64,000 nt of DNA from Candidatus Cloacimonas acidaminovorans str. Evry (GTDB lineage: Bacteria; Cloacimonadota; Cloacimonadia; Cloacimonadales; Cloacimonadaceae), in NCBI RefSeq assembly GCF_000146065.2, contig NC_020449.1, positions 496,001 through 560,000 of the forward strand, written 5' to 3'. The notes below the pieces were generated by a model. It saw only the letters and a program-made list of their open reading frames with translations, did not search any database and had not been told where the DNA came from. Of this stretch, positions 39,829 through 63,556 are shown piece after piece (the stretch's first letter is position 1; each line of letters opens with the position of its first letter). The position numbers and the translations under genes were made by a program.

Positions 39829-40527
39829 ATGAAGCAAGGTAAACTTGTCCCGATCCACAATGTCCAGAAAGCCGATGAGTGCATCGACTTCCTGCTTAAG
39901 CGTCCCCGCCTGGAGATGGTGGGACTGGGCATGCTGTACGGCAGACCCGGCCTCGGCAAGACCACCTATGCCAGCCGTGCTGCCTATGCTCGTGGCTACG
40001 TGTATATCAGACTGGAAGCCACGACCACTCCCAAAACCTTCGCCAAGGAACTGCTCCAGAATCTATACAGAAGCCTGGGTATGGGTGATTATCTCCCCGT
40101 GGGTACTACCAACAACATCTACAAGCAATGTATCCAACTGCTCCTCGATAATGAGGATACCGTCATCATCATTGATGAGATCGACTACGCCTTCCGCTAT
40201 CCTCAGTTACTCGGATCGGTCAGAGATCTGGTGGATGAGACCTTCGCAGTGGTGATCCTGGTGGGCATGCAGAACGCCATGGATAGGCTTAACCAGATCA
40301 ATGCTTACTACTTTGACCGCTGTAACTACTTCTACGAGTTCGAAGCGGTAAGCAAGGATGATATTAGAATGTTGGGCACCGAACTGATGAATATTCCCTG
40401 CCCGGAGTCCCTGGTCAATTACATCCACTTCAACGCAGCTGGGAATCTGAGGAAAGCCATCAAGATCATGCACATGCTTGAAGTCAGAAGTAAAATCAAT
40501 CCTATCCCAGCCATGAACCATATTTAG
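39829..40527 (+). CDS. MuB-type AAA+ ATPase (target selector)
   Basis: A 232-residue AAA+ protein with Walker A GRPGLGKT (residues 38-45) and Walker B VIIIDEIDYAF (about 108-118). It has sensor-like residues in VVILVGMQNAM and a C-terminal helical part. In Mu, MuB picks target DNA and activates the transposase; placement right after the transposase gene supports that role. It lacks the N-terminal HTH appendage of MuB, so it is closer to the short TniB/IstB-like partners. AAGGAG precedes the ATG. Confidence 0.9.
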   Translation: MKQGKLVPIHNVQKADECIDFLLKRPRLEMVGLGMLYGRPGLGKTTYASRAAYARGYVYIRLEATTTPKTFAKELLQNLYRSLGMGDYLPVGTTNNIYKQCIQLLLDNEDTVIIIDEIDYAFRYPQLLGSVRDLVDETFAVVILVGMQNAMDRLNQINAYYFDRCNYFYEFEAVSKDDIRMLGTELMNIPCPESLVNYIHFNAAGNLRKAIKIMHMLEVRSKINPIPAMNHI

Positions 40528-42185: not shown

Positions 42186-42437
42186 ATGGCATATATGAAT
42201 ACCAAAACTACAGAGGTTGTAGAGACAATGAGTATCTTCAATGATGAACGCAACTACCGCACGGATGAGATAGCCGATATCCTCCGGGTTGACCGCTCCA
42301 GCGTATATCGCTGGATACGGGACATAGAGAACCCTCTGCCTGCTTTCCGTACTAAAGAGAATGGTCAACTGCGCTGCAAGGGCAAAGACCTTAACGCCTA
42401 CTTAGATAAATACAAGGTACGCCCTGAGTATGAGTAA
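42186..42437 (+). CDS. Small HTH (excisionase-like) protein
   Basis: An 83-residue DNA-binding protein with a MerR/excisionase HTH in YRTDEIADILRVDRSSVYRW and a short wing. It ends eight bases inside the next gene, so translation is coupled. It probably regulates the switch from early to late functions or aids packaging; this is inference. Confidence 0.75.
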   Translation: MAYMNTKTTEVVETMSIFNDERNYRTDEIADILRVDRSSVYRWIRDIENPLPAFRTKENGQLRCKGKDLNAYLDKYKVRPEYE

Positions 42438-42879
42438 CAGCCGTGAGTTCCGCATCAAGCGGGACAACTGCAAAGAAGCCTATCTGAACGGCAAGACCGA
42501 TCCTCTGGAACTGGCGGTGATCTTCGGAGTCTCCGACATCACCGTCCATAAGTGGATCAAGAGCGGCAAGTGGGACGAGCTCTTCAAAGAAGAGAACCAA
42601 CTCGACCACGAGATCGCCATCGCCCGCAAGAAGGCACTCATTCAAGCGCTCCGGGAATATGCCAAGAATCCTGCCGACACAGCCATCCAAAGCCTGGTGA
42701 GCATGATGAAGCAGGATCAGAAGGATCGGCAGCCCTCCAAAGAACTGAACGACTACATCGTCAAGTTCCTGGATCAGGTTACCGACTTCATGATCGAGAA
42801 AGGGCATGAGACCTTGCTTAAGCAGTTCCAAAGCATTCTGCACGATTTGGCAGATTACCTGAGAGTGAGAAATGGATAA
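42430..42879 (+). CDS. Probable terminase small subunit
   Basis: The 149-residue protein has an N-terminal HTH (DPLELAVIFGVSDITVHKWI) and a long helical C-terminal part, the layout of small terminases, which bind packaging DNA. It lies one short frame upstream of the large terminase and overlaps both neighbours at their start/stop codons. A DUF1804-type Mu protein is an alternative family label. Confidence 0.7.
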   Translation: MSNSREFRIKRDNCKEAYLNGKTDPLELAVIFGVSDITVHKWIKSGKWDELFKEENQLDHEIAIARKKALIQALREYAKNPADTAIQSLVSMMKQDQKDRQPSKELNDYIVKFLDQVTDFMIEKGHETLLKQFQSILHDLADYLRVRNG

Positions 42880-43087
42880 ATTTACAGCCACGGACATGGT
42901 TGCTTCCATACACAACCTACCTACCCTCCAAACCCTCCAAACAGCGGAGCCGTTGCCTCCGACTCCGTTGAACCTTTCTACCTACCTACAGCATCCAAGC
43001 CAACAGCCCGACAAGGCCGTTCCTCCGACCTCCGGGTCCCCGACGCCCGTCCCCCTGGGCGTCGGGGGGTTACCCGGTTATGCCTAA
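42872..43087 (+). CDS. Proline-rich coupled reading frame, doubtful
   Basis: A 71-codon frame whose start overlaps the small terminase stop and whose stop overlaps the large terminase start, eight bases each. The product is low complexity, rich in Pro, Leu and Thr. The DNA is repetitive and pyrimidine-rich and folds into strong hairpins. Either it is translated to couple the terminase genes, or it is a structured non-coding stretch that happens to stay open. No homology is recognised. Confidence 0.35.
   Translation: MDKFTATDMVASIHNLPTLQTLQTAEPLPPTPLNLSTYLQHPSQQPDKAVPPTSGSPTPVPLGVGGLPGYA
43038..43067. promoter_or_regulatory. GC-rich hairpin before the large terminase gene
   Basis: CCCCGACGCCC pairs with GGGCGTCGGGG across an 8-base loop, an 11-bp stem ending 12 bases before the terminase ATG. 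It lacks a T tract. It could limit terminase translation or be a DNA site for packaging. Confidence 0.55.
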
Positions 43088-44633
43088 GAAGTTTATTCAG
43101 CGGCATAACAAGGCACTGGCGGAGATCGCATCTAAAACGATTTCCGTCTTGCCTTTTATAGACGATAATCCTGAAGCCAAGGCAGAGAGGATAAGGAGGA
43201 CAACTGCTGAGGGTTGGGATGCCTTCTCGTTCTTCTGTCATACCTATTTCCCGCATATCTTCCCCCTACCTTTTTGCCCAGCGCACGAGACCATGTTCGA
43301 TGAGACTGATAATGACTCAGGCATCATCGCCATTACCGGTTTTCGGGGGCTGGGCAAAACGGTGCTCATGGGAGTAGTCTATCCCATCTGGATGATCATC
43401 AAAGGTGAACGTTATGTGATCCATACCGCCGCAGACATAGATTTGGCTCAGGAGAGGACAGCATTCACCTTGCACGAGCTGCAGAACAATAAGCGGCTCA
43501 CCATTGATTATCCGGAGCTGCAGCCAATGGACAGTTTTGATCTGGACTTCTATCTCAAGAATAAAGCCAGGATCAGAGCCAGAAGTATCAAGCAGTCTCA
43601 TCGTGGAACCATCAATCCCAAGACAGCCAAAAGACCGGGACTCATAGTCTGTGATGATATCGATAAAGAAGAGAACATGGGCAACCAGTCCATCGGTAAG
43701 CGCAGAATGGAGAAGATAACCCAGGAGCTTGCCGGAGCACTCTCACCCGAGGGAAATGGAAAGATCATCTGGCTCGGTAACCTGGTACATCCCAACTATG
43801 CCATCTGCCAGTTTCAAGAGCTCATATTAAGTGAAATGCGGGCTGATAATCCCGATTTGGACTTGGGATACCAGTCGGTATTGAAAACGCACCAAAAAGC
43901 GATTTTACGCTTCTCTCTCGAAGATCAGCATGGTAAGTCCATTTGGGAGGAGCAATACCCTACTGCCACTCTGCCAAACCTACGTGCTAAATTCGGGATG
44001 ACCGGTTATCAAAGGGAGATGCTTGGACAGCCGGTTATCGAAGGAAACATCTTCAAGAACCACTGGTTTACCAAGTACCGGACCCTTCCCGAACCATCAA
44101 AGATGAAACGGGTCTGGCTCTATGCTGATCCTGCCTGGGGAGAAAAAGGCTGCTACAAGGCTGTCATCTCTATAGGCTACGATGGTAACAGGTTCTACGT
44201 AATCCATGTCTGGATACGGCAGACTGAGAATACCAAGTTCTTCAGATACTACTACGATGCCTACCAAGAGCTTGATAGAACTTACCGAGTGAAAGCCAGA
44301 GCAGCCTGTGAGACTACATACGGACAGGCTCGTATCCTTGCTGACTTCGACAGGTGGGCACAGGACAATCATCTACCGCCCATCAGTCACAGAATCAAGC
44401 GTATTGATAACAAAGATAACAAGAACCTCCGCATCGAGAGAACTGAGACCATCATAGAGACGGCCAAGGTGCTGTTTCCGGAGGGACAGGATACTCCTAC
44501 TCTCATCAGCCAATTCCTCACCTATCCTGATGGCTATATCGATGGCTGTGATGCTTTGGCTGGCTGCTTAGAACGCTTCTCTGAATACGATATCGGCAGG
44601 AATAGGGTAAAGGTTCGGAGGTTCAGCTTCTGA
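43080..44633 (+). CDS. Terminase large subunit
   Basis: The 517-residue DNA-packaging motor. The ATPase has a Walker A-like GFRGLGKTVLM (about 81-91) and a Walker B LIVCDDIDKEE (about 191-201). The C-terminal RNase H-type nuclease begins with an Asp in WLYADPAWGEK and has further acidic residues in GYIDGCDALAG. It matches the Mu gp28-like group. The stop overlaps the next ATG (TGATG). Confidence 0.92.
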   Translation: MPKKFIQRHNKALAEIASKTISVLPFIDDNPEAKAERIRRTTAEGWDAFSFFCHTYFPHIFPLPFCPAHETMFDETDNDSGIIAITGFRGLGKTVLMGVVYPIWMIIKGERYVIHTAADIDLAQERTAFTLHELQNNKRLTIDYPELQPMDSFDLDFYLKNKARIRARSIKQSHRGTINPKTAKRPGLIVCDDIDKEENMGNQSIGKRRMEKITQELAGALSPEGNGKIIWLGNLVHPNYAICQFQELILSEMRADNPDLDLGYQSVLKTHQKAILRFSLEDQHGKSIWEEQYPTATLPNLRAKFGMTGYQREMLGQPVIEGNIFKNHWFTKYRTLPEPSKMKRVWLYADPAWGEKGCYKAVISIGYDGNRFYVIHVWIRQTENTKFFRYYYDAYQELDRTYRVKARAACETTYGQARILADFDRWAQDNHLPPISHRIKRIDNKDNKNLRIERTETIIETAKVLFPEGQDTPTLISQFLTYPDGYIDGCDALAGCLERFSEYDIGRNRVKVRRFSF

Positions 44634-45508
44634 TGAACTACTATGATCAGCTCATGCTTGAATACTACCGGGTCCTCAATAATGCCTGGAAGACCGAGAT
44701 CAGGGATGCCGCACGCTTAGCTATCCAGATGCTGAGTGACATGCCGAGAGCAGAGAAACTCAACCAGAGCTCAATAGATAAGCTTATGAGCATCATCAAT
44801 ACCCGGTTGGGAGATGACTTCGCAGCCCTGGTCAATGAGCCCACCAAAGCAATAATAGACCGCTGTGTGCGGCTCGGACTTAAGGACACACAAGTGCAAG
44901 CTCCAACCAAGACCAGCATCGGACTCTGGGGTATTGAAGACCAACACTTATCTTCCACCATTCGGAAGCAGCAATTGTTCTGGATCGGGAATCACTTTGA
45001 AGCTGACGTCAGACAGAACTTTGCAGACACACTCTCCAAGGCAATCGAGCAAGGTTATACCAAGGAGATGCTTACTGATACTCTCAAAGACCAGTTCAAT
45101 GACCTCGCCAACAGATCATCCCACTACTGGCAGGGATTGGCAGAGCATACTGCTCTCAGAATAAGAGAGTTCGGAAGGCTTCAGGGCTACAAGAAAGCTA
45201 AAGCCAAATACTACAAGCTCGTAGTTATCCTGGATGACCGCACCAGTGACATCTGCCGGGCTTTGGCTGCCCAGGATAAGATCTACCCTCTAAACGATGC
45301 CTTGGAAGTAATGGACAACCTGATGGCTCTGGACACCAAGTCCAACAGCCTGGATGATGCTCGGGAATACATTAAAGCCCTCGCACCCTGGATCAAGGAC
45401 GATCAGATCGAATATGACTCAGAGATGAATCCTGTAGGAGTATCAGGGGCGCATACTCCGTTTCCGCCGTTTCATTGGAAGTGTAGGACAACAACTGTTG
45501 TATATTGA
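44633..45508 (+). CDS. Phage head morphogenesis protein (Mu gpF / SPP1 gp7 family)
   Basis: A 291-residue minor head protein. The C-terminal family signature is clear: RTSDICRALA, then PPFHWKCRTTTVVY, the Cys/His-containing end of this family. It probably sits at the portal and acts in head assembly or DNA ejection. In Mu-like phages it normally follows the portal; here it follows terminase directly and the portal lies beyond a 9-kb cargo. Its stop codon is only four bases from the stop of the convergent gajB gene. Confidence 0.88.
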   Translation: MNYYDQLMLEYYRVLNNAWKTEIRDAARLAIQMLSDMPRAEKLNQSSIDKLMSIINTRLGDDFAALVNEPTKAIIDRCVRLGLKDTQVQAPTKTSIGLWGIEDQHLSSTIRKQQLFWIGNHFEADVRQNFADTLSKAIEQGYTKEMLTDTLKDQFNDLANRSSHYWQGLAEHTALRIREFGRLQGYKKAKAKYYKLVVILDDRTSDICRALAAQDKIYPLNDALEVMDNLMALDTKSNSLDDAREYIKALAPWIKDDQIEYDSEMNPVGVSGAHTPFPPFHWKCRTTTVVY

Positions 45509-45512
45509 TAGT

Positions 45513-47453
45513 CTATACTCTTTCAATTATCCATCCATTTTGCTTTAGAGCTGTTAGATTTGCTTCGCTAACATTATCATTTTGAAATGCTACACAAAGA
45601 AAGTGAGTCGGTCTGCTTAGACCAACATAACAAACCTTAAGAGTAGTCCTGTATGCATCGTTTTTGGGATCATTGTGGGTGCCAACAAAGTAATCAATCA
45701 GTCGTTTGGATTCAAATGATCCATTGAAATAGGACTCGAGATAAAGCGTAGCGGTATGTGTCTCACCCTTGACTGAATGAACAGTTCCAATCTTAATGGT
45801 AATGTCTGAGACAGCATATGAATTTGATAAGTTATGACATTGCGAATTAATGCCATCTAATTCAGAATCAATAAAATCGCTTAAAGAATCTGTGTTAAAC
45901 TGCATAATTGTAGCCCATTCGTCTTCGATAAAATTTATAATCTCCAACCACACACACATTGCATACAAACACGAATAATGTTCACATTGTGGATTACATC
46001 CATGTGAGTATATTGCTTTTGTCCATTTTGCTGCCTTTTCAAGAAATCTATGATAAAAAGCAGGATGTTTGTCTGCTAACTCTCTGAGTAGAGTATCTTT
46101 TGAGTACGGCACTAGCTTACCACTCAGAGAAGTCCTCTTGATTTTTAGAATCTCAAGAGTCCGTAATAAGCCACTTAAAATGCTATTAAATATTTGATTA
46201 GATTGATTGTTATCTTCGCTGTGGTAGTTTATTAAGTAGTTCTTTAATGAATCAAATGCTGTTTTGTTGGTTTTCTTAGGTTTCTGATAATCAGGGAAAT
46301 AACTACCTATCCAAAGCTTGTCACTATTTTCATCTTCTCTTCTGCCGACCCAACCGACTGCTTTATATATTGGGTTATCAATGGTATGCCACTTATCTCT
46401 ATGCAGCTGTATTAATTCAGAGAATTTTGGTATAACAGATATGGGGTCTCTAAACAGAATAACAGTGGGTGGAACGCATTCTTTACAGAGATCTCCATTC
46501 AAATTCTCAGGGCGTATACATACATTTCTAATTGCTGAGGCAATAGAACAAGACAACCGTTTTGAGTTTGGTATTCGTATTGGATTAGGGGCAACATTCC
46601 AATCTAAGTCTGCTCGTGCAAAGTTATAAATAGCCTGATTTGGGTCTCCTATCCGCTGAAAAACGGTAGGTGGAATGAATATTTTATCTAATATGTTCAT
46701 CTGAAGCGCAGTAGTGTCCTGCATTTCATCAATAAAAGCAAAACAAAATCGCCTCGAAAAGACATAGCAAAGATTAGGATTTCTGTTAAGATACCTATCA
46801 GCTAGCCAATATGCTTCGTCATATTTAAGATATCCATTAGAAAAAACTTCATATTTTGCATTTAACAAACTCTTGTATGTATCCTTATTTTTATCCTTTA
46901 ATGGGAATTCAGCAGCACTCCCATTGATACCTAATCGTAGGTCATAATTATCATCTAGCCGAAGATCTTTTATCAATCCTGGATAATGCTTAGATAACCA
47001 AGAACGCGCTGCCCTAGATATCTTACTATCCGTCAATTTATCAACATACTCATCATCGAAACGAACTGGTCGCATCCCAAATATATTTAAGAATTCTGGG
47101 ATGGCTAAGAATTTATCTGTAAACTCCTGTATTGTTCCAAAGAAATTGGGGTATGCGAACAGAATTGATGCTTCAACGCCCATCTTCAACTTGATTTCAT
47201 CCATAGCAACATTCGTGTGAGTAAGAACACATATTCCTTGATTATCTGTGAAAGGCATGAACCGAGATAGTATGTATAGCTTTGTAATAAGTGCAGTTGT
47301 CTTTCCGCTACCAGGGCATGCGATAATGTCCTTTGTATCAAGGTTACAGATAAATTCCATACTTTCATCATCAAAACTAGCTCCTTGGGGCAGGAACTTT
47401 CTTGAGGCGTCAGGGATAAGTATTCTAATTTCTTCAGATGTTGGAAGTCTCAT
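45513..47453 (-). CDS. gajB: Gabija protein GajB, UvrD-like helicase
   Basis: A 646-residue superfamily 1 helicase-like protein. Motifs: Walker A ACPGSGKT (residues 45-52), Ia VLTHTNVAMDEI, II FIDEMQDTTALQ, III RIGDPNQAIYNF, V GTVHSVKGETHTATL and VI CYVGLSRPTHFLC. The last two are typical of GajB. It lies eight bases after gajA, completing a Gabija anti-phage system. GajB senses DNA ends or unwound DNA and with GajA forms a large complex that degrades phage DNA and nucleotides. It is oriented opposite to the surrounding phage genes and is AT-rich. Confidence 0.9.
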   Translation of the reverse strand: MRLPTSEEIRILIPDASRKFLPQGASFDDESMEFICNLDTKDIIACPGSGKTTALITKLYILSRFMPFTDNQGICVLTHTNVAMDEIKLKMGVEASILFAYPNFFGTIQEFTDKFLAIPEFLNIFGMRPVRFDDEYVDKLTDSKISRAARSWLSKHYPGLIKDLRLDDNYDLRLGINGSAAEFPLKDKNKDTYKSLLNAKYEVFSNGYLKYDEAYWLADRYLNRNPNLCYVFSRRFCFAFIDEMQDTTALQMNILDKIFIPPTVFQRIGDPNQAIYNFARADLDWNVAPNPIRIPNSKRLSCSIASAIRNVCIRPENLNGDLCKECVPPTVILFRDPISVIPKFSELIQLHRDKWHTIDNPIYKAVGWVGRREDENSDKLWIGSYFPDYQKPKKTNKTAFDSLKNYLINYHSEDNNQSNQIFNSILSGLLRTLEILKIKRTSLSGKLVPYSKDTLLRELADKHPAFYHRFLEKAAKWTKAIYSHGCNPQCEHYSCLYAMCVWLEIINFIEDEWATIMQFNTDSLSDFIDSELDGINSQCHNLSNSYAVSDITIKIGTVHSVKGETHTATLYLESYFNGSFESKRLIDYFVGTHNDPKNDAYRTTLKVCYVGLSRPTHFLCVAFQNDNVSEANLTALKQNGWIIERV

Positions 47454-47461
47454 GAAAATCC

Positions 47462-49351
47462 TTACTTATTACAGGCCCATTTGATGGCATCTATTATGTA
47501 AGTTAGTTCAGGATCTTGTTCAATCGTCCCTTTTAAATCTGGTTTTTTATCCATGATTTTCTTAGCCAGAACCTGTGCCGTGAGTGCTTTTGACAAATTG
47601 GAGAGAAATGGTCTCATGAACTCGTATGGAGAGTCGGTTAAATCTGGAGGATCAAAACTAATTCCTGGCATTTTCAGCACTTCAATCATGGACTCATGTA
47701 AGAGGCTTTTTAGACAGCTTTTTGCAAGGCTATATTCCAGTGTCCAATCGTTGTAAGTAATTCTAATATCTGTACCTATACGATCAGGCTTTTCCTGTGA
47801 ACTTGAGACGAACTGTAAATAATCATCGATCCAATCTTCAGTGAGTGGATGTTTGCCGTCCTTCGTTATTAATGCCGATTGGGAGTGTTTTTTCATCTGT
47901 TGCGTGAATCCAACGAGATCAGTTCCAATGTACCTAACATTGTTATCTTCAAGTGTATATACTTTGGGAGGATATTTGGTTAAATGCTCCCTACATGGTA
48001 CATCACCATCAGCGATGATAGCCACTCTCATTCCCAACCCTGAGCCATCAGTCCTTTGAAAGATGTTCGCATACCGTTTCCAAGCTTTACTTCCTACTTT
48101 AACAAGTGATATGCCATATTTGTTAAGGGGAAATCCAATAACATCAGCAATGGCTGGTACAAGCAAATTTTCCGCGTCACCCTCAACAATAATTATACCT
48201 TTCGCAAAAAATAGATTCGCTTTAGTAGCGTCAAGAAACCTCTCAAGGAATAAATAATCAATCTGATCAAGCATTGTATAATCATGCCCCATAGGGTAAA
48301 CACGATTGCCCTTACAAACAATCATATTCTCTAGTGGTATGCTTGAACCTAATATGACACTATGTGTAGTCAGGATGGTCTGACCAATACTATTATAGTT
48401 ATCTATAAGATATTGTAGAACGTTCAACTGATAATGTGGATGAAGATGAGCTTCCAGTTCTTCAAGTAAAACAAGTTTTAAACCCGTGTAGCCATCTCTT
48501 TTCAATAATAGAAATTCTGCAGCTATATACAGCAGATTCATCATACCCAAACTTGGTAAGTTCTTATCTATTTGAAGGGATAGCCTTTGTAGTATTGCCC
48601 ATAACTCAACGCCAGATAGAGATACAAATGGTTTGTTTTTAATATCTTCGGAAGTATAGCTATTTAGCGCTTGTTCAATCTCATCTATTATTATTTTCCC
48701 TTCTGGTTCGATGGGTTTGGTACCAATTGTTAAGCCAGTTTGTTGGCCAAAATACTGCTGGATTTTTTTGTCAGCTTCTTCTACTATCTCTTCAAGGGTA
48801 TGTGATTCATTTGGCTTCTTCTGGAATGCAGGATGACTTTTCAATAACTGTGCAAAGCGGGATCGACGCCCAGAGGACATTTCTATTTCCGCATCACGAA
48901 GTGGCTTAAGATAAGTTACCCTTAATAGATCTCTAGCACCACTCTCAAATACAGTCCCAGTATCATCCATCCCAGCTCGAGTATTAACTATGATACGATC
49001 TGTTTTGATTATTGCAGATAACCATACTCTTAACACAAAGTTATTATTTTCGTCAAATCCGAGCCATTCTAAAAAGTTCCCAGCCTCTTGATCTGTGAAC
49101 CCAGTGAATTCACACTCTATTTTCAATTCTTCAGCACGATTTCCAGCTTGATTACAGTGGAAATCAGTCTCCTGAACTCTTATATACTCATAACTTTGAG
49201 TATTTAATATGTATCGCACAGCGTCAATTATTGTGGACTTCCCAGACTCATTTTCACCGATCAAAACATTCAATCCTTGGTTAAAAATTACTTCAAGTCC
49301 CGGGTCACCATATTTCCTAAAGTTTGTAATCTTCAATTTTAATAGGTACAT
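47462..49351 (-). CDS. gajA: Gabija protein GajA, ATPase plus TOPRIM nuclease (OLD family)
   Basis: A 629-residue OLD-family nuclease. The ABC-type ATPase half has LKITNFRKYGDPG and Walker A GENESGKST (residues 32-40), then LLEELEAHLHPHYQ (Walker B region) and LTTHSVILGS. The TOPRIM half has IIIVEGDAENLLVPA with the metal-binding Glu and IIADGDVPCREH with the Asp pair. GajA is a DNA nicking nuclease held inactive by nucleotides and released when phage depletes them. It has its own promoter (49382-49410). All motifs look intact, so the system is probably active. Confidence 0.92.
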   Translation of the reverse strand: MYLLKLKITNFRKYGDPGLEVIFNQGLNVLIGENESGKSTIIDAVRYILNTQSYEYIRVQETDFHCNQAGNRAEELKIECEFTGFTDQEAGNFLEWLGFDENNNFVLRVWLSAIIKTDRIIVNTRAGMDDTGTVFESGARDLLRVTYLKPLRDAEIEMSSGRRSRFAQLLKSHPAFQKKPNESHTLEEIVEEADKKIQQYFGQQTGLTIGTKPIEPEGKIIIDEIEQALNSYTSEDIKNKPFVSLSGVELWAILQRLSLQIDKNLPSLGMMNLLYIAAEFLLLKRDGYTGLKLVLLEELEAHLHPHYQLNVLQYLIDNYNSIGQTILTTHSVILGSSIPLENMIVCKGNRVYPMGHDYTMLDQIDYLFLERFLDATKANLFFAKGIIIVEGDAENLLVPAIADVIGFPLNKYGISLVKVGSKAWKRYANIFQRTDGSGLGMRVAIIADGDVPCREHLTKYPPKVYTLEDNNVRYIGTDLVGFTQQMKKHSQSALITKDGKHPLTEDWIDDYLQFVSSSQEKPDRIGTDIRITYNDWTLEYSLAKSCLKSLLHESMIEVLKMPGISFDPPDLTDSPYEFMRPFLSNLSKALTAQVLAKKIMDKKPDLKGTIEQDPELTYIIDAIKWACNK

Positions 49352-49381
49352 ATTCCCTCCACCTTTTATATCCTAATATTG

Positions 49382-49410
49382 AACATAACTTTAGCACTCC
49401 TAAATGTCAA
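49382..49410 (-). promoter_or_regulatory. Promoter of the Gabija operon
   Basis: TTGACA at 49410-49405, 17 bases, TATGTT at 49387-49382, about 30 bases before gajA. It is a near-consensus promoter inside the 119-base gap after hsdM-S, so Gabija can be expressed apart from the type I system and from phage late transcription. Confidence 0.65.
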
Positions 49411-49470
49411 ATAAGACAAAATATGTCCGATTCACTCAATAGTTCGTATTATGAATCATCTTTGGCAACA

Positions 49471-51984
49471 TCATAATGGTCTTTTTTGATTGGTTTCCCA
49501 TAAACGGTTTATCCTTTCTTTAATCTTTTGCTCAAAGAGTGCGATTAACTTACGGTTAGCTTCAACGAGCTTTTGTTCAGATTCTATTCGGCTCACAATA
49601 ATCTGTTGCACATCAAGTTCTGGAATTGATATCTCTTTTTCGACCAACTTAGAAAAGTGGCGATTGTATCCTTGCGGAGTAATTGGGAATGCGAGTAAGT
49701 AATAGTACAAATACTTAGGAATGACATTTTCTGTGGTGCTTAATATTTTTATGCCGTCAGCACCTTGACAGAAGTTTTTGGAGATGTATTTGATGCGACA
49801 TGTGTGGTCACCAAATATGACGACTGGTTTCTCAATTCTCACTAAAGCTCGTTCATCATCAGTCCATCCTGCTATCTCGTGCATAGATTGATCAATTATT
49901 GGGTATGCTCCGCTGGAACTGTATTCGGAGGTTTGAATCTTCATAGGTGCAGTCAAGGTGGTAAAAATTTCCTTATATGGGTACGAATCCCACTCCGGAT
50001 CAATATCAATGTGTGGTTTCCAATTGTCCACAACTTGCTTGGCGCCATCTATGATCTTCTGATAGGAATCCAATTCTGCAACTATCTCTTCCTGGACTGA
50101 AAGGGGTGGGAGAGGGATCCGCAAACTTGAATACTGCTGTGCATTGATGTTGGATATTGTGCCAGTTTTTGATTGTTTAATGATCCAATTTGCATAGTAC
50201 TCAGACTTAGTAAGGTAGAATATAAATCTTGGTAAGGCTTTATTCTTATCAAGGACAAAACGGATTAGATATCCTGCAAAGATAAACCTACCTTTCTGTC
50301 GGTGAATATATACCCTACCAACAGACCCTGATCTAGCGAAAAGCAAGTCATCTTCATTCAATAAATATTTTTCATTGATCACTGAGGGAGACACTATATC
50401 GTTATCTTTCAAGTTGCCATCGTCATCTATATCGGTTATCCGGATATACCTTGTCTCTCCATCATAATCAGTTTTTGCGGCTCCCGACCCATATTGAGCC
50501 TTTTTGACACAGATTTCATCAAGTCTAACAGTATCATATGTATAACTGTTTGATGTAGAAGAGATATACCTCTCCCAGCTAAGATTAAAATCTCCATTCT
50601 CTGCCAACCTTGTCTTTTCGACCAAGCTCACATTTTTGTCGGATGCTATATACTCTTCACCAGAAAGCACAGATTCTTTGTATGCCATCGCATTATCAAA
50701 GGCGGCAGGGAGGTCATTGGCTTCAATAGGCCTTCTCTGAGCGCCCAAATCAAATCCATCGTTGTTGATCTTGAGGAAAATGATCTTATCAGTTTTTTTG
50801 GCAAGGGCTTTATCGATCCAGAGAATAGAGGTTTTTACTCCAGAATAGGGATTGAATACTCCTGCCGGAAGCGATATAACTCCTACAAGGTAGTTTTCTT
50901 CAACCAGCAGCTTACGAAGCTGTTTATAGGCGTTTCCACTTTGGAAGATGATACCTTCAGGTACGATGATTCCCGCTCTGCCATTGTTAGTGAGGTGTTC
51001 CAGCATATAGTCCACAAAGAGCACTTCACTGCGTTTGGCCTGGATAGTGAATTTATGATGGGGACGGATACCCCCCTTGGGAGTCATAAAGGGAGGATTG
51101 GCGAGAATCACATTAGCGTATTCATTCCAGCGTTCTGTGCTGGTGAGAGTGTCATACTCAAAGATCTGGGGGGTGTTGAAGCCATGCAGGTACATATTGA
51201 CCAGAGAGAGGCGCACCATCTCAAAGGCAATGTCATAGCCCTTTATGTTCTTATGCAGAAATGCCCGCTGATCCGGAGTAAGCAGATCTCCTGTGTATTT
51301 TTTGCCATTTTGGATAACCAGCTCATCCAGAGGTGTGTTGTGCATGGCAAAGGTGTGGGGGTCATTTACTTTATCATAATTTGAGCTATTCGTTTTGATG
51401 ATGTGTTTATAAGCAGAGATCAGGAAACCGGCTGTCCCGCAAGCGGGATCGAGAATGCTGTCCTCCTTTTGGGGATCGATAAGTTCCACCATAAAGTCTA
51501 TAATGTGGCGAGGAGTTCTAAACTGACCGGCATCGCCCTGAGAGCCAAGCACAGCAAGCAGGTATTCAAAGGCGTCACCCAGTTTTTCACTATGCTCATA
51601 GGTAAATTCGTCTATGCATTTCAGAAAGAGTTTCAAGGTTTCCGGGTCACGGTAGGGTAGGAAGGCATTCTTGAAAATATCCCTGAAAAGTGTGGGTATA
51701 GAAGCATTATTGGGTATCTTTGTCAATGCGTCCTGATAAAGCATAACCCTGCCCTCGCCACTCAGCTTTTGGTCAAAGAGTCTGTTCCATGCGTATTTGG
51801 CATAATCACCTGTAAAATACTTCGGTTTGCCTCCAAGCTCTATGGATTCGTTGTCCATATCATACATAAATTTATAGATCAGAGCTATGGTTATCTGCTC
51901 AACCTGGGAACTGGGCACGGGGACTTTACCGACCAGGATATCCCTGGCGTCGTCTATCTTCTTTTTCGTAATAGAATCTAACAA
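49471..51984 (-). CDS. hsdM: Type I restriction-modification methylase-specificity fusion (HsdM-HsdS)
   Basis: An 837-residue fusion. Residues about 1-470 are an N6-adenine methylase with an N-terminal helical domain, SAM motif DPACGTAGFLISA (179 on) and catalytic ANPPF (295-299). The remainder has two target recognition domains: first about 475-655, ending RIPLPPLSVQEEIVAELDSY, second about 670-837, ending in the coiled-coil LIALFEQKIKERI. So M and S subunits are one chain and the two half-sites are read by one protein. It follows hsdR after nine bases. Fusions of this type occur in some type I systems; the target cannot be predicted. Confidence 0.9.
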   Translation of the reverse strand: MLDSITKKKIDDARDILVGKVPVPSSQVEQITIALIYKFMYDMDNESIELGGKPKYFTGDYAKYAWNRLFDQKLSGEGRVMLYQDALTKIPNNASIPTLFRDIFKNAFLPYRDPETLKLFLKCIDEFTYEHSEKLGDAFEYLLAVLGSQGDAGQFRTPRHIIDFMVELIDPQKEDSILDPACGTAGFLISAYKHIIKTNSSNYDKVNDPHTFAMHNTPLDELVIQNGKKYTGDLLTPDQRAFLHKNIKGYDIAFEMVRLSLVNMYLHGFNTPQIFEYDTLTSTERWNEYANVILANPPFMTPKGGIRPHHKFTIQAKRSEVLFVDYMLEHLTNNGRAGIIVPEGIIFQSGNAYKQLRKLLVEENYLVGVISLPAGVFNPYSGVKTSILWIDKALAKKTDKIIFLKINNDGFDLGAQRRPIEANDLPAAFDNAMAYKESVLSGEEYIASDKNVSLVEKTRLAENGDFNLSWERYISSTSNSYTYDTVRLDEICVKKAQYGSGAAKTDYDGETRYIRITDIDDDGNLKDNDIVSPSVINEKYLLNEDDLLFARSGSVGRVYIHRQKGRFIFAGYLIRFVLDKNKALPRFIFYLTKSEYYANWIIKQSKTGTISNINAQQYSSLRIPLPPLSVQEEIVAELDSYQKIIDGAKQVVDNWKPHIDIDPEWDSYPYKEIFTTLTAPMKIQTSEYSSSGAYPIIDQSMHEIAGWTDDERALVRIEKPVVIFGDHTCRIKYISKNFCQGADGIKILSTTENVIPKYLYYYLLAFPITPQGYNRHFSKLVEKEISIPELDVQQIIVSRIESEQKLVEANRKLIALFEQKIKERINRLWETNQKRPL

Positions 51985-51993
51985 ATGGTTCTC

Positions 51994-54519
51994 CTACATA
52001 AACTTATTAAGGACTACATAGTCCTTGATGTATTCCGGGATGGCAGTGCGCCACTTATCTTTGACAGCCTTGAAGTCGTTCATACCGAAACGGGGATATG
52101 TGTAAAGTTCCGCGTAGTCCCTGCTGTCAATGATGTCTCTTAACCGATTATCTGTAACATAGGCCTTGAAATAGTATTTGAGCGCAGGTATGTTATCTGT
52201 GGTATTGGGTTTAAAAATGGAGATAAACTTGTCAAATTCTGCATTAATCAGCTCGTCTTTGGATTTGAAACCGGGGATGAGGCCAAATGCTTTTTCCACG
52301 ATCTCTCTGAGAGTTAAGCGGCGATCAAGCTGGATAGAATGTCTAAGCTTCTCCAAAGTAAAGAAATCCTCTGGTTTATCGATAATGTTCTGATTGATAT
52401 AATCCAAAACATAATCCCATTTTCCGTCGTTGACCCCTTGCTTGACTTTTGGGTCTTGCTTGATCTTCTCTTCGAACTTTTGGAAGTACATGCGGTCGAT
52501 TTTCATACCTTCTGTTCCAATGGACTTACGATCAATCTTTGCCAGAGGATCGGGAGTGTGAATTTCTGCACTTGTTGCTTGAGGTTGAGGGGGCTCCCCA
52601 CCAACAGGGAAGGTGGTTTGTTCATTTAAAACAGGGAGCGCCAGGACCTGGTCGTAGTCGAACTTTTCTTCAAAATACTCGCATACTGCGAAGAAATCAA
52701 AGAGGATATAGCCTGTTTTGATCTTGTCCTTATGCTGTTCCTTGAGAGATGGATCAATAAATTGCTCGTAGAAATTGTGGAGCCGAGTCCCTCTGCCTTT
52801 GATCTGGATGAACTCTGAGGGTGAGAAAATGGGTCGCATCAAGGCTATGTTGAGGATGTCCGTGCAATCGTAGCCGGTGGTCATCATACCGACAGTTACG
52901 CATACCCTGGTTTTGGATGTGCGGTAATCAGATATGAAGTTTCCTCTACCGGAAAGGTTGTTGTTGGAGAAGTTGATGGACATTTGCTGAGCCGTAGGTA
53001 TGATAGAAGTAACCTGCATGGCAAAGTCAGAATTGTATTTGCCAGGGAACATTTTATCAGCCATCTCATTGAGGATCTGGGTAAGTTTAGTGGCATGCCT
53101 TTGGCTTACCGCGAACACTATTGATTTACCAATCTCGCCGCTGATGGGATCATAAGCGGCATTTTCCAAGAAAGCACGGCAGAGGGTGACATTGGTGTTC
53201 TCCGAAAAGAACCTCTTTTCAAAGTCCCTTTCTTCAAAGTAGGTAATAGATTCCTCTCCTTGGAAGTCCTTTTCCACATAGGCAAAGCCCTGATCTGATA
53301 ATAACTGGGTGGTTACTTGGGAACGGGCATCGATCACTGTTGGGCTAACAAGATAGCCATCTTTCACACCATCAACCAAAGAATAGCGATATGTGGGTAT
53401 GCCACTCTTGCAACCAAAGGTCTCATAAGTATCTAAAAGTAATCTGCGTTCATACTCCCGGGTGCTGTTCTCGTTGGGTTTTGCGTTTTTAAGATAGTCT
53501 TTTGGCGTTGCAGTTAGACCAAGCTTATAACCTACGAAGTACTCAAACACAGCTCTGGCGTTGCCACCGATGGAACGATGAGCCTCGTCAGAGATTACCA
53601 GATCAAAATCGGTGGGGCTGAACTTGGTGCGGTATTTATCGGCTGACAAGAGAGACTGAACCGTCGTTATGACAATATCGGCTTTTCTCCAGTCGTCCTT
53701 GTTTTCTTTGTAGATCAAGGATGTGAAATCATTCTTGAGATACTTGACCATATTACGCTGGGCTTGGTCTTCCAATTCCAGGCGATCTACCAGGAAAAGT
53801 ACTCGGTGAGCGTTCCCAGTCTTAAGAAAGAGCTTTATTACGACAGCAGAGATAAGTGTCTTTCCTGTCCCGGTTGCCATCTCAAATAGGAAACGGTTTT
53901 TCCCCTTTCGGACTGAGTTTTGAATCGATTCTATAGCCTTTACTTGATATGGTCGCAGTAAACTGAGGTTGTGCTTCTTCAGATATTCTGCTCTAGTATC
54001 CTCGTTGTAGAAATCAGGGCTTTGGTCGTAGTCATGCTTTTGGGTTACCGCTATATAGCCAGAGGTCACGATCTCGTTCACCAATGCATCAGGATCGGGA
54101 TTGTAGTGCTCGTAGCCCTTCATAGATTCTGGGGTGGGAAATTTTGTGATAATGTAGGGGTTGCCCTGCTGTGTGTCCCAGAAATAGTGTAGATTACCAT
54201 TAGATAGTAAGATAAACCTACAGTTTTGAGAACGAGCATAGGTTCTGGCTTGTTCTTTCCCCACCAAAGGGCTGTGCTTTTCCGATTTTGCTTCCAGCAC
54301 AATAATGGGATGGGAATGCTCATCTAAAAGCAAGAAATCTATAAATCCCCTGGATACTTTCTCAAAGTCTGCGCCATATTCATCTATCATTTTTTGCGTG
54401 ACCTTGGTTTGGTTTTCGAGCAAGATATTGGCTGGTTTGCCCTTCTCATCAAAGAACCTCCAACCTGCTTCTTTCAAAAGATCATTAATCTTAATTCGTG
54501 CACTAGCTTCTTTACTCAT
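51994..54519 (-). CDS. hsdR: Type I restriction endonuclease, HsdR
   Basis: The 841-residue motor-nuclease subunit. N-terminal nuclease core: Asp in FIDFLLLDEH and the EAK motif in IIVLEAKSEKHS (Glu76, Lys78). SF2 helicase: MATGTGKT (214-221), DEAH in LVISDEAHRSIGG, and motif VI-like QIKGRGTRLHNF. It is first in an operon with the hsdM-S fusion and reads against the phage genes. The chain is complete, so restriction is probably functional. Confidence 0.92.
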   Translation of the reverse strand: MSKEASARIKINDLLKEAGWRFFDEKGKPANILLENQTKVTQKMIDEYGADFEKVSRGFIDFLLLDEHSHPIIVLEAKSEKHSPLVGKEQARTYARSQNCRFILLSNGNLHYFWDTQQGNPYIITKFPTPESMKGYEHYNPDPDALVNEIVTSGYIAVTQKHDYDQSPDFYNEDTRAEYLKKHNLSLLRPYQVKAIESIQNSVRKGKNRFLFEMATGTGKTLISAVVIKLFLKTGNAHRVLFLVDRLELEDQAQRNMVKYLKNDFTSLIYKENKDDWRKADIVITTVQSLLSADKYRTKFSPTDFDLVISDEAHRSIGGNARAVFEYFVGYKLGLTATPKDYLKNAKPNENSTREYERRLLLDTYETFGCKSGIPTYRYSLVDGVKDGYLVSPTVIDARSQVTTQLLSDQGFAYVEKDFQGEESITYFEERDFEKRFFSENTNVTLCRAFLENAAYDPISGEIGKSIVFAVSQRHATKLTQILNEMADKMFPGKYNSDFAMQVTSIIPTAQQMSINFSNNNLSGRGNFISDYRTSKTRVCVTVGMMTTGYDCTDILNIALMRPIFSPSEFIQIKGRGTRLHNFYEQFIDPSLKEQHKDKIKTGYILFDFFAVCEYFEEKFDYDQVLALPVLNEQTTFPVGGEPPQPQATSAEIHTPDPLAKIDRKSIGTEGMKIDRMYFQKFEEKIKQDPKVKQGVNDGKWDYVLDYINQNIIDKPEDFFTLEKLRHSIQLDRRLTLREIVEKAFGLIPGFKSKDELINAEFDKFISIFKPNTTDNIPALKYYFKAYVTDNRLRDIIDSRDYAELYTYPRFGMNDFKAVKDKWRTAIPEYIKDYVVLNKFM

Positions 54520-54717
54520 CCGTTTTCCTTCGGTTCATAATAGATATAATTCTTTACACCTATCTATTACTTTCCTCACAATATGTTATGAATATGCTAT
54601 ATCTATTTCTGTCAAGTCCAAATTCTGTCTCATCCTTGCTCATCCTGATTTGTCAGCATAAAGGGTAGTGCTTTCCTGGCTCCGGATCAATAATCACAAC
54701 TGGAACAAGGAGATAGC
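54520..54717. other. Junction between defence cargo and phage lysozyme
   Basis: A divergent gap of 198 bases. On the minus side TTGACA at 54615-54610 could be the -35 of the hsdR promoter, although the -10 is unclear. On the plus side the DNA becomes phage-like and ends with CAAGGAGATAGC before lysozyme. No terminal inverted repeats of an insertion element are seen. Confidence 0.4.
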
Positions 54718-56086: not shown

Positions 56087-56484
56087 CCGCACTTGAAAAG
56101 TACCAAGCCGAACGCAGCTGCATCTCCGAAGCTTTGAAACTAGCAGGATTGACAGAGATACTCTACAACAAGGACAACATCCCCAAGAGCCTCCCTTGCG
56201 CAATTCTGATCCTTGATTCTGAGACAGGCAAGAATGGCACTTCCAGACAGTATGTGAGTACAGACCTGGCATGGACAGTATTCCTAATCGTCAATGCCCA
56301 AAACGTATCCGATCCGGACTCTGAGCTTTACTCGCTAAAGGAGAAGTTCAGGTCTTACTATCAGAAGCTGATGAACCGGGACCTGCCCAGTGTGGAATAC
56401 TATACCAGCCGTATCGATGGCACACGCCTGGTCAGGATCGCCAAGATAGATCTGTTGAAAACTGGCATCGGAGCTGGCTCATGA
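56083..56484 (+). CDS. Phage tail-terminator-like protein
   Basis: 133 residues, ATG at 56083 overlapping the previous stop with GAGG just upstream. The mixed alpha/beta pattern (ALEKYQAERSCISEALKLAG, later LAWTVFLIVNAQNVSDPDSE) suits tail-terminator or tail-completion proteins, which often follow the gp10-like gene. No signature motif is present, so the call is tentative. Confidence 0.5.
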   Translation: MTALEKYQAERSCISEALKLAGLTEILYNKDNIPKSLPCAILILDSETGKNGTSRQYVSTDLAWTVFLIVNAQNVSDPDSELYSLKEKFRSYYQKLMNRDLPSVEYYTSRIDGTRLVRIAKIDLLKTGIGAGS

Positions 56485-57668
56485 GAGTGATGCGACTAGG
56501 TGCTTATAACCTGGCTATCAGTTCTGCTACTGATCTGCTGGAGGCCAAGTACAAGCCGGAGCCCATAGATTTATCCAAGTATCAGAGGATCGGTAAGCAG
56601 TTGGTATCCAAGGCTGCCGAGACCAAGAAGGTAGTTTCTCAACCCTATTCGATGAGCAAGCTTCTCAATCTCCTGGATACCGACGAGTACCACTCCGGCT
56701 GCATAGATGCCCTCACTATGGCTACTATCATGCAGTTCGATTGCAAGAACAGCCAGGTTAAGTCCTGGATGGAAGCTGCCGAGTTTCCTGCCTGTGAAGA
56801 TCAGACCACTATCTTAGGCGAGCTGATGAAGTTCTATCTGGCTTGTGGAAATGGCTTCCTGATCAAGATGCGGAACGCTCAAGGTGAGTGGATAGGACTG
56901 GAGCGCATGCTTCCCTCGGAAGTTCAGATAGTGGAGAACTACGACGAGTTCGGCTTCTTCAAACCCAACTACATCCAAGTCAAGAACAACCAGAAGAAGG
57001 ACTTTGCCTACGAGGACATCATCCACGTGAAGAAGTCCACCCATAGATCTAACGCCTGGGGCCTGGCCTGCCTGCCCATAGCCATCAACATCGAGATATT
57101 GGGTGAGATCAAGACCTTTGATTACAACAACTTCAAGAACGGTCTGATGATTGACTATTTCGTGATCGTAGAAGGTGGCACCCTCAGGGACGGAATCGTT
57201 ACCGATGAGCAGGGCAATGAAGTGCTGACCGATGCCTATACCGAGATCGAGAAGGCACTCACCGAGGTCAAAGGCAATGCCAAGAGCCACTCCACTGTCT
57301 TGATCGAGAGTGAGAGCCGGGACGTGAAGATACGCCTCGAACCACTGCGTCAGCAAGATAGAGAAGGTGGCTTTATCACCCTCAAGAAAGACCTCAGGGA
57401 AGGTATCCTTGCCTATCATAGAGTACCTGCCAGGATCGTCTCACAACTCATTCCCGGGCAGCTTGGTGGCGATAACCGAAGCGATATGCTGATGTTCTAC
57501 CAGTTCGTGGTCAGACCGCTGCAGAACCGCCTGGCTTTAGCTCTGGCAAACGAGTTCAACTTTGATTTCGGCTGGAATGTGAAGCCGGAGGACTTCAACT
57601 TCGGTAACCTGACCGAGGTACTGCAGACTGCTGATGAACAGCTCTTTATGCAAAATCGCAATTTGTAG
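56481..57668 (+). CDS. Phage portal protein
   Basis: A 395-residue portal of the PBSX/P2 gpQ-like family. Typical blocks are ACGNGFLIKMRNAQGEWIGL, the clamp region FAYEDIIHVKKSTHRSNAWG with GLACLPIAINI, and the C-terminal HRVPARIVSQLIPGQLGGD. It forms the dodecameric DNA channel in the head. It overlaps the previous gene by four bases and is followed by the capsid polyprotein. Confidence 0.9.
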   Translation: MRVMRLGAYNLAISSATDLLEAKYKPEPIDLSKYQRIGKQLVSKAAETKKVVSQPYSMSKLLNLLDTDEYHSGCIDALTMATIMQFDCKNSQVKSWMEAAEFPACEDQTTILGELMKFYLACGNGFLIKMRNAQGEWIGLERMLPSEVQIVENYDEFGFFKPNYIQVKNNQKKDFAYEDIIHVKKSTHRSNAWGLACLPIAINIEILGEIKTFDYNNFKNGLMIDYFVIVEGGTLRDGIVTDEQGNEVLTDAYTEIEKALTEVKGNAKSHSTVLIESESRDVKIRLEPLRQQDREGGFITLKKDLREGILAYHRVPARIVSQLIPGQLGGDNRSDMLMFYQFVVRPLQNRLALALANEFNFDFGWNVKPEDFNFGNLTEVLQTADEQLFMQNRNL

Positions 57669-57741
57669 GCTTTGGAGCGCAATAACTATGTATAACTATT
57701 CAACTGACAATCAACTAAACAACAATACTAAAGGAGGTAGC

Positions 57742-59472
57742 GTGAATCGTAAACGCACCATTCTCAAGGGAGAACTCCGCAACGTGGAAGTCGAGTTAGT
57801 CTCGCTCCTCTTCGGAGAAATGACTCCCGCCAACCAGAAGGGCTTTGTGGTCAAGAACGCTTCCGGCAGAAGCTTCGAACACAAGATCAACTCCAGCAAG
57901 TTCAAGAGTGAAACGAGTGGCACTCAAGGACGGCTTTATGTCACTCTGATGGAGCCCAACATCCACGATTCCCAGGGTGACTATTACACCCGGGAAGAGA
58001 TTCAAAAGGCCTGTGACCACTTTGCCAAGCACGGCTTAGTCGGTAAATGCGATGTGAACCACAATATGCAGCCGGTACCTGAGTTCACCGTGGTCGAGAA
58101 CTACATCCTCAAGACCAGCGACCGGGAACACTTCCCCGATACCAAGGTGGGTGCCTGGGTCCAGGTCTTGAAGTGTGAAGATCTGGGCAGTGAGCTCTGG
58201 CAGAAGGTCGAGAAAGGCGAGTTCAATGGGGTATCCATCTATGGCAGAGCTGATGACTACAGCGGAACTGAAGCCAGCTTATCTGAGATCAAGAACGAGC
58301 TCAACAACCTGCGTAAGGTAGCGGAGCATAACAACAACTCCGAGCTGCAGAAGGGCATTACTGCTATCACTGAGAAGATCAGTGAGTTGGAGAAGGGCAA
58401 TCCCAACCTCCAGATTGGTGATGCCATCTACAGCATCGAGAAGAGCCTCAAAGACCTCTCTGTGACTATGTCTCGTGCCATCTCGAAATCAATACCCGGA
58501 GAGCCTGATGCTAACCATTCCAATGTGGACAAAGAGGTTACCATCGATGGCAATAAGATCATGGTCAAGGCCAGTCATCGTGAGATCTACAAGGGTATCT
58601 CCGACGTTGACTCCGGCAAGGCTATGAACATCCTCACCGCCAACACCACTTCTCTGTTTATAGATGAGGTGATCAGCAGCCAGCCCGGAGACACCCTCTC
58701 GGACATCTCGGTGCTGCCGCTACTCAAAGACGAGAAGATCGACGTCGGTCTGATCGATGACCTGGTCTTCAAGAATTCCCTCGATGGAGCTCTGACGGCT
58801 CAGAATGTATCGACTGCTGATCTCTCCGTTCCCACCGGGATACTCAATGCCGAGTTCACCTTAGGCAGAGATGTGGTCGAGTTCTACAAGGACAAGTACG
58901 GTGAAGATGCCTTCGGTGCCTATGTGGAGAACCACATCGCTAAGAAGACCGAGAAAGCCATCCGCATGCTGCTCTTCAAGGGTGATCGATCCTCTGCTAC
59001 TGCCAAGATCAAGGCTCTGGATGGAGTGGTCAAACTGGCTACCACCGCCACCGACGTCACCAACCTCTCCAAGGCCACCTACACCGACTGGGCGAAGCGC
59101 TTTGAAGCCGCTCTGCTGGCATTCTCCGACGAGATGTTGGAAGAGCAGGAGAACTTCAAGTTCTACGTCAGTCATAAAGACCTGATCCGTATCAGGGCTG
59201 AACTCGCCAAGCGTGAGACCGGAGCAGGAGATCGCCTGCTGCTTGAAGGTGGCAATGTCTCCTTTGCGGGTATCCCCGTAAAGCCCCGTCTCATGGATGC
59301 TGATTACATCATCGGCGGTCTGCCCAAGTTCATCATCATCGGCTATCGCACTGATGCCGAACTCAAAGTCGAACACCACGGAAGTGACTGGAAGTACCAC
59401 TGGTACATCCGTATCCGTCCCGGCATCACCTACATTTCCGGCTTCGTGAAAGTGTTCAAACTCACTACATAG
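57742..59472 (+). CDS. Fused prohead protease, scaffold and major capsid protein
   Basis: A 576-residue protein. Residues about 25-172 match XkdF-like prohead protease (GRLYVTLMEPNIHDSQGDYY, then DVNHNMQP with a candidate His and EFNGVSIYGRADDY with a candidate Ser). Residues about 175-250 are a predicted coiled coil, the usual place of the scaffold delta domain. Residues about 265-576 are an HK97-fold capsid (GEDAFGAYVENHIAKKTEKA, FAGIPVKPRLMDADYIIGG). The start is GTG with AAAGGAGG four bases before it; upstream in-frame ATGs lie in the portal end and lack a site. Normally these parts are separate genes. Confidence 0.88.
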   Translation: MNRKRTILKGELRNVEVELVSLLFGEMTPANQKGFVVKNASGRSFEHKINSSKFKSETSGTQGRLYVTLMEPNIHDSQGDYYTREEIQKACDHFAKHGLVGKCDVNHNMQPVPEFTVVENYILKTSDREHFPDTKVGAWVQVLKCEDLGSELWQKVEKGEFNGVSIYGRADDYSGTEASLSEIKNELNNLRKVAEHNNNSELQKGITAITEKISELEKGNPNLQIGDAIYSIEKSLKDLSVTMSRAISKSIPGEPDANHSNVDKEVTIDGNKIMVKASHREIYKGISDVDSGKAMNILTANTTSLFIDEVISSQPGDTLSDISVLPLLKDEKIDVGLIDDLVFKNSLDGALTAQNVSTADLSVPTGILNAEFTLGRDVVEFYKDKYGEDAFGAYVENHIAKKTEKAIRMLLFKGDRSSATAKIKALDGVVKLATTATDVTNLSKATYTDWAKRFEAALLAFSDEMLEEQENFKFYVSHKDLIRIRAELAKRETGAGDRLLLEGGNVSFAGIPVKPRLMDADYIIGGLPKFIIIGYRTDAELKVEHHGSDWKYHWYIRIRPGITYISGFVKVFKLTT

Positions 59473-61050: not shown

Positions 61051-61151
61051 TCCTGCGTAAACTGGGTTTCACTAACGAGGACTTCGAGTCTCTCACCCTC
61101 CCTGAGCTGTATCTCAGGCTCTGTATTACCGACCCGAAAGGAGATGCTTGA
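60940..61151 (+). CDS. -1 frameshift extension of the tail chaperone (GT-type product)
   Basis: At T-TTT-TTC (60942-60948) the ribosome can slip back one base. The -1 frame stays open from 60948 to the stop at 61149-61151, adding 67 residues, including LAREFRIGGNSVSKYPFERF and EDFESLTLPELYLRLCI, to give a product of about 150 residues. A perfect 8-bp stem (60959-60966 with 60983-60990) follows at a 10-base distance as a possible stimulator. An internal ATG at 61047 in this frame could alternatively make a separate 34-residue peptide. Confidence 0.7.
60942..60990 (+). promoter_or_regulatory. Programmed -1 ribosomal frameshift element
   Basis: Slippery heptamer T-TTT-TTC in the zero frame, 10-base spacer, then GAGCCAAC...GTTGGCTC with a 16-base loop. 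It has all classic parts of a -1 frameshift signal in a dsDNA-phage tail chaperone. Confidence 0.7.
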
Positions 61152-63496: not shown

Positions 63497-63556
63497 AGTA
63501 ACCTCGTATTTTTTCTACAGGCTAATATTACAAACTTCAACATTCTGTCAATAGCA

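Follow-up and report, generated by a model that had tools for sequence, protein, structure and literature searches.

Gabija and type I restriction-modification genes occupy a probable exchangeable cargo slot in a Mu-like prophage of Cloacimonadota

We propose that the Gabija and type I restriction-modification (R-M) genes found within the head module of a Cloacimonadota Mu-like prophage now fill a dedicated, exchangeable and antisense cargo slot, characteristic of a lineage of Mu-like phages of this phylum, where they would defend the lysogen. We estimate the probability of this reading at about 0.85. The window, that is the whole stretch of DNA that was analyzed (64,000 nucleotides, C1:496001-560000), belongs to a single-contig Cloacimonadota chromosome of 2,246,820 bases (2.25 Mb). 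Positions are those of the window unless a locus or contig is named.

The prophage, P1, extends on the plus strand from 35990 to 69715 (33,726 bp), past the end of the window at 64000, and its ends were set by alignment with a second copy. As expected of a Mu-like phage, both copies have related inverted ends (TATNNNTTCTCAC) flanked by a 5-bp target duplication, AGAGA for P1 (35985-35989 on the left, 69716-69720 on the right, outside the window) and GTGAA for the other. P1 encodes a phage repressor (36200-37024, minus strand; PHROG phrog_4, E 1e-33) and, on the plus strand, the two proteins typical of Mu-like phages, a MuA-like transposase (37755-39818; phrog_310, E 3.7e-82) and a MuB-like transposition ATPase (39829-40527; phrog_296, E 2e-21). 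The head genes, also on the plus strand, begin with the terminase small subunit-like gene terS (42430-42879; phrog_4151/1889), the terminase large subunit TerL (43080-44633; phrog_38, E 2e-59) and a gpF-like head morphogenesis gene (44633-45508; PF04233). Beyond the cargo come a phage lysozyme (54718-55143; PF00959, E 1.5e-14), the portal protein (56481-57668; PF04860, phrog_12) and a head protease fused to a major-capsid-like domain (57634-59472; phrog_3017 and phrog_1623), and a tape-measure gene is also present, giving a Mu-like set of head and tail genes. The first-pass annotation, made from the sequence alone, had described the cargo as separating gpF from lysozyme, connectors and portal; the separation of gpF from lysozyme and portal is borne out, but the connectors are unconfirmed, as the three small ORFs that follow lysozyme and precede the portal gene gave no functional match.

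P1 is not a decayed remnant, since dN/dS between the two prophages is 0.088 over 19 genes and none of their core genes is broken; its target duplication and inverted ends likewise contradict decay, which the first-pass annotation had named as a finding that would overturn its proposal. Two genes of the sister prophage show apparent stops, none of them beyond codon 14, for which start choices that are too long in P1 are the best explanation. The two prophages differ at a further variable site (62739-63555, minus strand; 332 bp in the sister), which lies immediately upstream of the tape-measure gene and holds an antisense ORF of 255 aa (62729-63496) without PADLOC match; the adjoining gene mt2 shows a raised dS (0.81). 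Between the capsid and tail genes, two tandem paralogues (61148-62742; mutual identity about 40%) both match phrog_56, annotated as DNA methyltransferase. Besides small genes, of which the one scanned had no PADLOC match, a very AT-rich segment immediately to the left of P1 (32804-35625, 27-33% GC) carries the gene of a type II DNA methyltransferase (PDLC03363, E 3e-138); this segment constitutes another defence-type locus, outside the phage.

No close relative was found among the isolated phages of INPHARED, the best TerL being about 25% identical over most of the protein and the best gpF about 26-31% over part of it, and the open-access literature searched contained no description of such prophages in Cloacimonadota. 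Near-identical phage pieces occur in MAGs labelled Fermentimonas, Bacteroidales, Thorarchaeota and Bacillota (L181, L184, L189, L200 and L218); we rejected a spread of the phage to these groups, misbinning of short contigs being the likely cause.

The cargo itself consists of four intact minus-strand genes running against the phage late genes, and PADLOC and Pfam confirmed the identity first given to each of them. The gajB stop starts at 45513, four bases from the gpF stop (45506-45508), as had been noted. The product of gajB (45513-47453), a UvrD-like helicase, matches PDLC00131 over residues 13-645 of 646 (E 1.5e-173). Only 8 bases away, gajA (47462-49351) encodes an OLD-like ATPase-TOPRIM nuclease matching PDLC00080 over residues 1-629 of 629 (E 1.2e-194; AAA_15), with an ABC-type ATPase (PF13175) and a TOPRIM domain (PF20469). 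These two adjacent genes, both matching full-length models, form a Gabija system, as proposed at first. Gabija is rare in the phylum, with 6 genomes out of 125, and the matched pieces of the other GajA proteins share about 49-63% identity with that of P1. A sequence search of solved structures with GajA and GajB returned only OLD/PtuA/Rad50-type and PcrA/RecB relatives.

The two other genes encode an R-M system. The hsdM-hsdS fusion (49471-51984; PF02384, PF01420) carries an N6_Mtase domain at residues 133-477, with the motifs DPACGTAGF and NPPF, and two Methylase_S stretches corresponding to two target-recognition domains (TRDs). HsdR (51994-54519; PF04851, PF13588) is a translocase with a PD-(D/E)xK-type nuclease (HSDR_N/HSDR_N_2, ResIII, Helicase_C) and displays the motifs ATGTGKT, DEAH and D...ExK. 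The separate HsdM and HsdS subunits of a classical M2S enzyme are not found in the slot; because M and S form one polypeptide and no separate hsdM lies beside it there, we file the system as fused, type IMS-like, rather than as classical type I. The AT-richness first ascribed to the cargo holds relative to the phage core (GC 0.36-0.45, against 0.49-0.55 for most of the core) but not relative to the host, whose GC is close (0.37-0.40).

The sister prophage, on the same chromosome (C1:265872-231704, 34,169 bp), is collinear with P1. Their identity is 86-97% in most 500-bp windows as far as 45491 and from 54620 onward, and nothing aligns between these two points. At this very site the sister carries 9.9 kb encoding HsdR (1011 aa), HsdS (440 aa), HsdM (690 aa) and an RmrA-like protein, that is a type I R-M system different from that of P1. 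As the flanks align and the slot does not, the cargo has been swapped in its entirety, with the rest of the phage left largely unchanged.

Of 125 genomes of the phylum, 36 contain gpF relatives, and IMG/VR adds 57 loci; most of these relatives lie on MAG or IMG/VR contigs. The 103 loci with at least 600 bp downstream of gpF yielded 79 distinct cargos. In the lineage with a gpF identity of about 80% or more, lysozyme never directly follows gpF; the same junction being filled in every related phage examined, its filling is not due to chance. The first-pass annotation had predicted that a comparison at the gpF-lysozyme junction would reveal varied defence genes in many related prophages, or an uninterrupted junction, and had suggested a recurring cargo hotspot. 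Varied defence genes were indeed found in many relatives, and the number of distinct cargos, with a junction filled throughout the lineage, supports the hotspot. An uninterrupted gpF junction was seen in two divergent phages, L083 and L100 (gpF 53% and 61%), where lysozyme is absent from this place; this arrangement looks ancestral. At the same edge of gpF, cargo is present in other divergent phages (L099, L101, L102, L103 and L108). A TIR-pattern search for prophage ends in the other genomes gave one right end only.

The antisense orientation is nearly a rule. Among 36 complete, distinct slots, a few of which sit in decayed copies, 158 of the 174 genes run antisense and 16 in the sense direction (binomial p about 1.5e-30, the genes being treated as independent though operon mates are not). 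Twenty-six slots are wholly antisense, 10 hold at least one sense gene and none is wholly sense. Their size ranges from 3.7 to 10.3 kb, with a median of 9.4 kb.

Both borders of the slot are well defined. On the gpF side, the sequence is near-invariant, codon third positions aside, up to TGGAAGTGNAGGACnACnAC (CRTTT), beyond which the cargos are unrelated. A stop occurs within 6-11 residues past the CR codons in all 71 of 71 distinct cargos, against just 32% of same-frame 6-codon stretches just inside the slot. The cargo itself therefore provides the last gpF codons, which are cargo-specific, and gpF function is kept. The right border is a conserved element of about 110 bp (54609-54717, plus strand), promoter-like and including the lysozyme ribosome-binding site. 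Many relatives have its core a second time, on the same strand, about 245-280 nt before terS, although some of these matches are weak, and in two it lies 35-65 nt upstream of the protease-MCP gene. The best reading of this element is a late promoter or activator site, from which late transcription could restart past the cargo. We also considered that it might belong to the cargo or be an integrase att site, and ruled this out since the core also precedes terS. No enrichment of terminator-like hairpins was seen immediately after gpF, where 3 of 36 slots have one, against 1 of 36 internal controls. In one cargo, a partial lysozyme-side element lies about 1.8 kb from the slot edge (L077:7907-7955, with a copy in L172), which suggests a nested earlier insertion.

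The slot is mostly devoted to defence, though not exclusively. Twenty cargos were sampled protein by protein, and 13 gave defence matches: besides Gabija and type I in P1, these are type I (L065, L142), type IIG with an endonuclease-effector-like protein (L070), an NB-ARC STAND ATPase with a C5 methyltransferase and a helicase (L088), type III with HKD-SNF2 (L092), Leo-like dynamins (L069), dynamins (L081), a type II system with an REase and two methyltransferases (L073), a type III methyltransferase (L078), a type III-like REase (L144), a ZorD/Dpd-like helicase (L139) and MzaC of the Mza system (L146). Three cargos (L087, L093, L118) encode T9SS-secreted or beta-helix proteins, and in four (L090, L124, L162, L174) the single protein scanned in each had no strong match, those of L090, L162 and L174 having no PADLOC match. 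ResIII, N6_N4_Mtase, N6_Mtase and dynamins head a domain tally of 86 cargo proteins from 20 slots, which also contains T9SS tails and one AcrB-type (RND-pump-type) protein; the PADLOC tally includes R-M types II, IIG and III, ThsB (Thoeris) and HKD-SNF2. The T9SS-secreted C25-type peptidases or beta-helix proteins, seen at L070:12870-17009 as well as in L087, L093 and L118, are unusual for phage cargo.

How the cargo changes can be approached through the divergence of its flanks. Between P1 and its sister, dS is 0.14-0.24 in MuA, MuB and gemA and climbs toward the slot, with 0.40 in terS, 0.62 in TerL and 0.83 in gpF, lysozyme beyond the slot being at 0.79. Such a climb is expected if replacement by recombination in the flanking genes drags the flanks along. 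On the right, identity varies along the flank (80.6% at 55990, 100% at 57490), which makes this hitchhiking signature cleaner on the left. Other pairs have cargos closer to each other than their flanks are: those of L092 and L155 are mostly 98-99% identical against 88-90% in gpF, those of L143 and L147 about 95% against 84-90%, and in both pairs the shift occurs right at the slot start. Exchange also takes place inside the slot, as indicated by partial sharing such as that between L070, L077 and L137, which have the two gpF-proximal genes in common and not the remainder. Pairs sharing cargo have only modestly closer gpF and lysozyme flanks than other pairs, and sharing is a weak predictor of the gpF or lysozyme allele, because sharers are closer overall and the pairs are not independent. 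No integrase, transposase or recombinase was found in the four P1 genes or in the scanned cargos. The first-pass annotation had proposed that the prophage may move the defence by transposition; the diversity of the cargo appears to stem from recombination between phages instead. One genome, G010, has 12 gpF matches on different contigs, several of them full-length (its loci include L067, L069, L070, L075, L076, L078, L081, L089, L104, L111 and L122); such heavy poly-lysogeny would favour slot-to-slot exchange.

Remnants with retained cargo do exist in other genomes, although P1 is not one of them. In seven loci (L114, L115, L118 and L120-L123), the final 120-300 bp of gpF, 78-90% identical at the DNA level, are joined to unrelated DNA and followed by cargo genes, with no other phage gene nearby except a lysozyme piece in L114. 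In L117, broken gpF and lysozyme ends enclose an operon of type I R-M genes akin to the cargo of the sister prophage. The breakpoints in gpF fall at scattered points 118-308 bp before its end, which rules out a fixed breakpoint; the many short gpF matches at contig ends were set aside and excluded from this truncation count. Old prophages thus seem to leave their cargo behind in host chromosomes, where selection may be what retains it.

On this basis, we propose the following scheme. The slot separates gpF, with which one late block ends, from the promoter-like element before lysozyme, which would restart late transcription beyond the cargo. The cargo would have antisense promoters of its own and probably be expressed during lysogeny, so that Gabija and the R-M system would restrict phages entering the cell. 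It would be replaced, wholly or partly, by recombination in the conserved flanking genes, with co-resident or infecting relatives as partners, so that the phage backbone would remain constant while the defence changes. When the prophage decays, the cargo may stay in the chromosome beside a gpF stump. A type I system would methylate its own carrier. Gabija reportedly spares prophages that are being induced (PMC12407980); given both properties, the carrier need not harm itself.

One could wonder whether the antisense arrangement also serves as a switch, late transcription through gpF running antisense into the cargo upon induction, shutting the defence off and avoiding autoimmunity. The strength of the antisense rule, the lack of terminator enrichment after gpF and the restart element before lysozyme all point in this direction, and a precedent exists in the noncontiguous operon Tha/Ith of Staphylococcus phage 80alpha (PMC11087260). 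We nonetheless hold this idea as tentative, since the orientation may merely avoid expression during lysis and since a switch would be needless for Gabija at least, induced prophages being reportedly spared (PMC12407980). Also speculative is the picture of a regulated, always-occupied defence bay, in which immunity and lysis would be mutually exclusive whatever the cargo, which prophage recombination would reload and from which dying prophages would deposit islands; if this were true, the phage lineage would be a main source of defence genes in Cloacimonadota.

The contents of the slot bear on another hypothesis, that of a general accessory (moron) space filled to reach packaging length, the identity of the cargo being secondary. 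The slot is never empty in this lineage, its size tops out near 10.3 kb, and T9SS-secreted proteins and one RND-pump-type protein figure among its cargo. We find this hypothesis unlikely, because defence in 13 of 20 sampled cargos exceeds what filler would give and because cargo can be as small as 3.7 kb. The sharp edge at the gpF 3' end and the isolated gpF 3' ends in chromosomes might also evoke an autonomous mobile island whose own integrase targets this end. This we regard as very improbable: neither the P1 genes nor the scanned cargos contain an integrase or a transposase, the breakpoints of the remnants are scattered instead of fixed, and the flanks diverge as in homologous exchange. As to a host defence island landed by chance in a dead prophage, it would agree with the closeness of cargo and host GC and with the decayed copies in several chromosomes, but it hardly deserves any credence for the P1 locus. 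It is already contradicted there by the target duplications, intact genes and dN/dS of about 0.09 of both prophages, and by the same site being filled in all relatives of the lineage.

A dedicated, exchangeable slot would have several implications. Defence can change while the prophage remains nearly the same, and an always-filled antisense slot in a largely uncultured phylum constitutes a direct route for defence islands into chromosomes. It also gives a testable rule on the way in which prophages could carry immunity while leaving late transcription undisturbed. Finally, the slot is a place to seek new systems, the unmatched cargos of L090, L162 and L174 standing where relatives carry defences.

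Phage defence hotspots have so far been documented mainly in P2/P4-type elements, those of Mu-like phages being small accessory loci. P2-like phages and P4-like satellites carry established defence hotspots at a fixed locus (Rousset et al. 2022, PMC9122126). The Cloacimonadota slot resembles them in that conserved flanks at one fixed locus enclose defence systems that differ from one relative to another, R-M types included. Whereas the P2/P4 hotspots adjoin cos and P4 cargo is found in either orientation, the present slot is located inside the head module, between gpF and lysozyme, and its genes are almost always antisense; it also differs by its transposable phage, its median of 9.4 kb and a gpF border whose last codons come from the cargo. 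Mu-like phages of P. aeruginosa possess accessory regions including anti-CRISPR genes (PMC4378225), which sit where the central gyrase site is expected (PMC8705779). These are, like ours, fixed accessory loci of low GC, but they hold mainly ORFs of 34-100 codons, as opposed to multi-gene defence operons of 4-10 kb. With Tha/Ith of 80alpha (PMC11087260), where immunity is coupled to the lysogenic state, the slot shares a prophage defence placed antisense; Tha/Ith is one gene with a small inhibitor near cI, whereas the slot receives large exchangeable cargos in the late region. The Gabija of P1 is the same gene pair as known Gabija and differs by its genomic setting alone. Its R-M neighbor is built like type IMS, an EcoKI HsdM-S fusion with HsdR (PMC3510504), having one M-S polypeptide, two TRDs and a separate HsdR; the EcoKI version was engineered, while the fusion in P1 is natural. 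Altogether, defence hotspots as such were already known, and what differs here is the scale, the constant occupation, the orientation and the boundaries of the slot.
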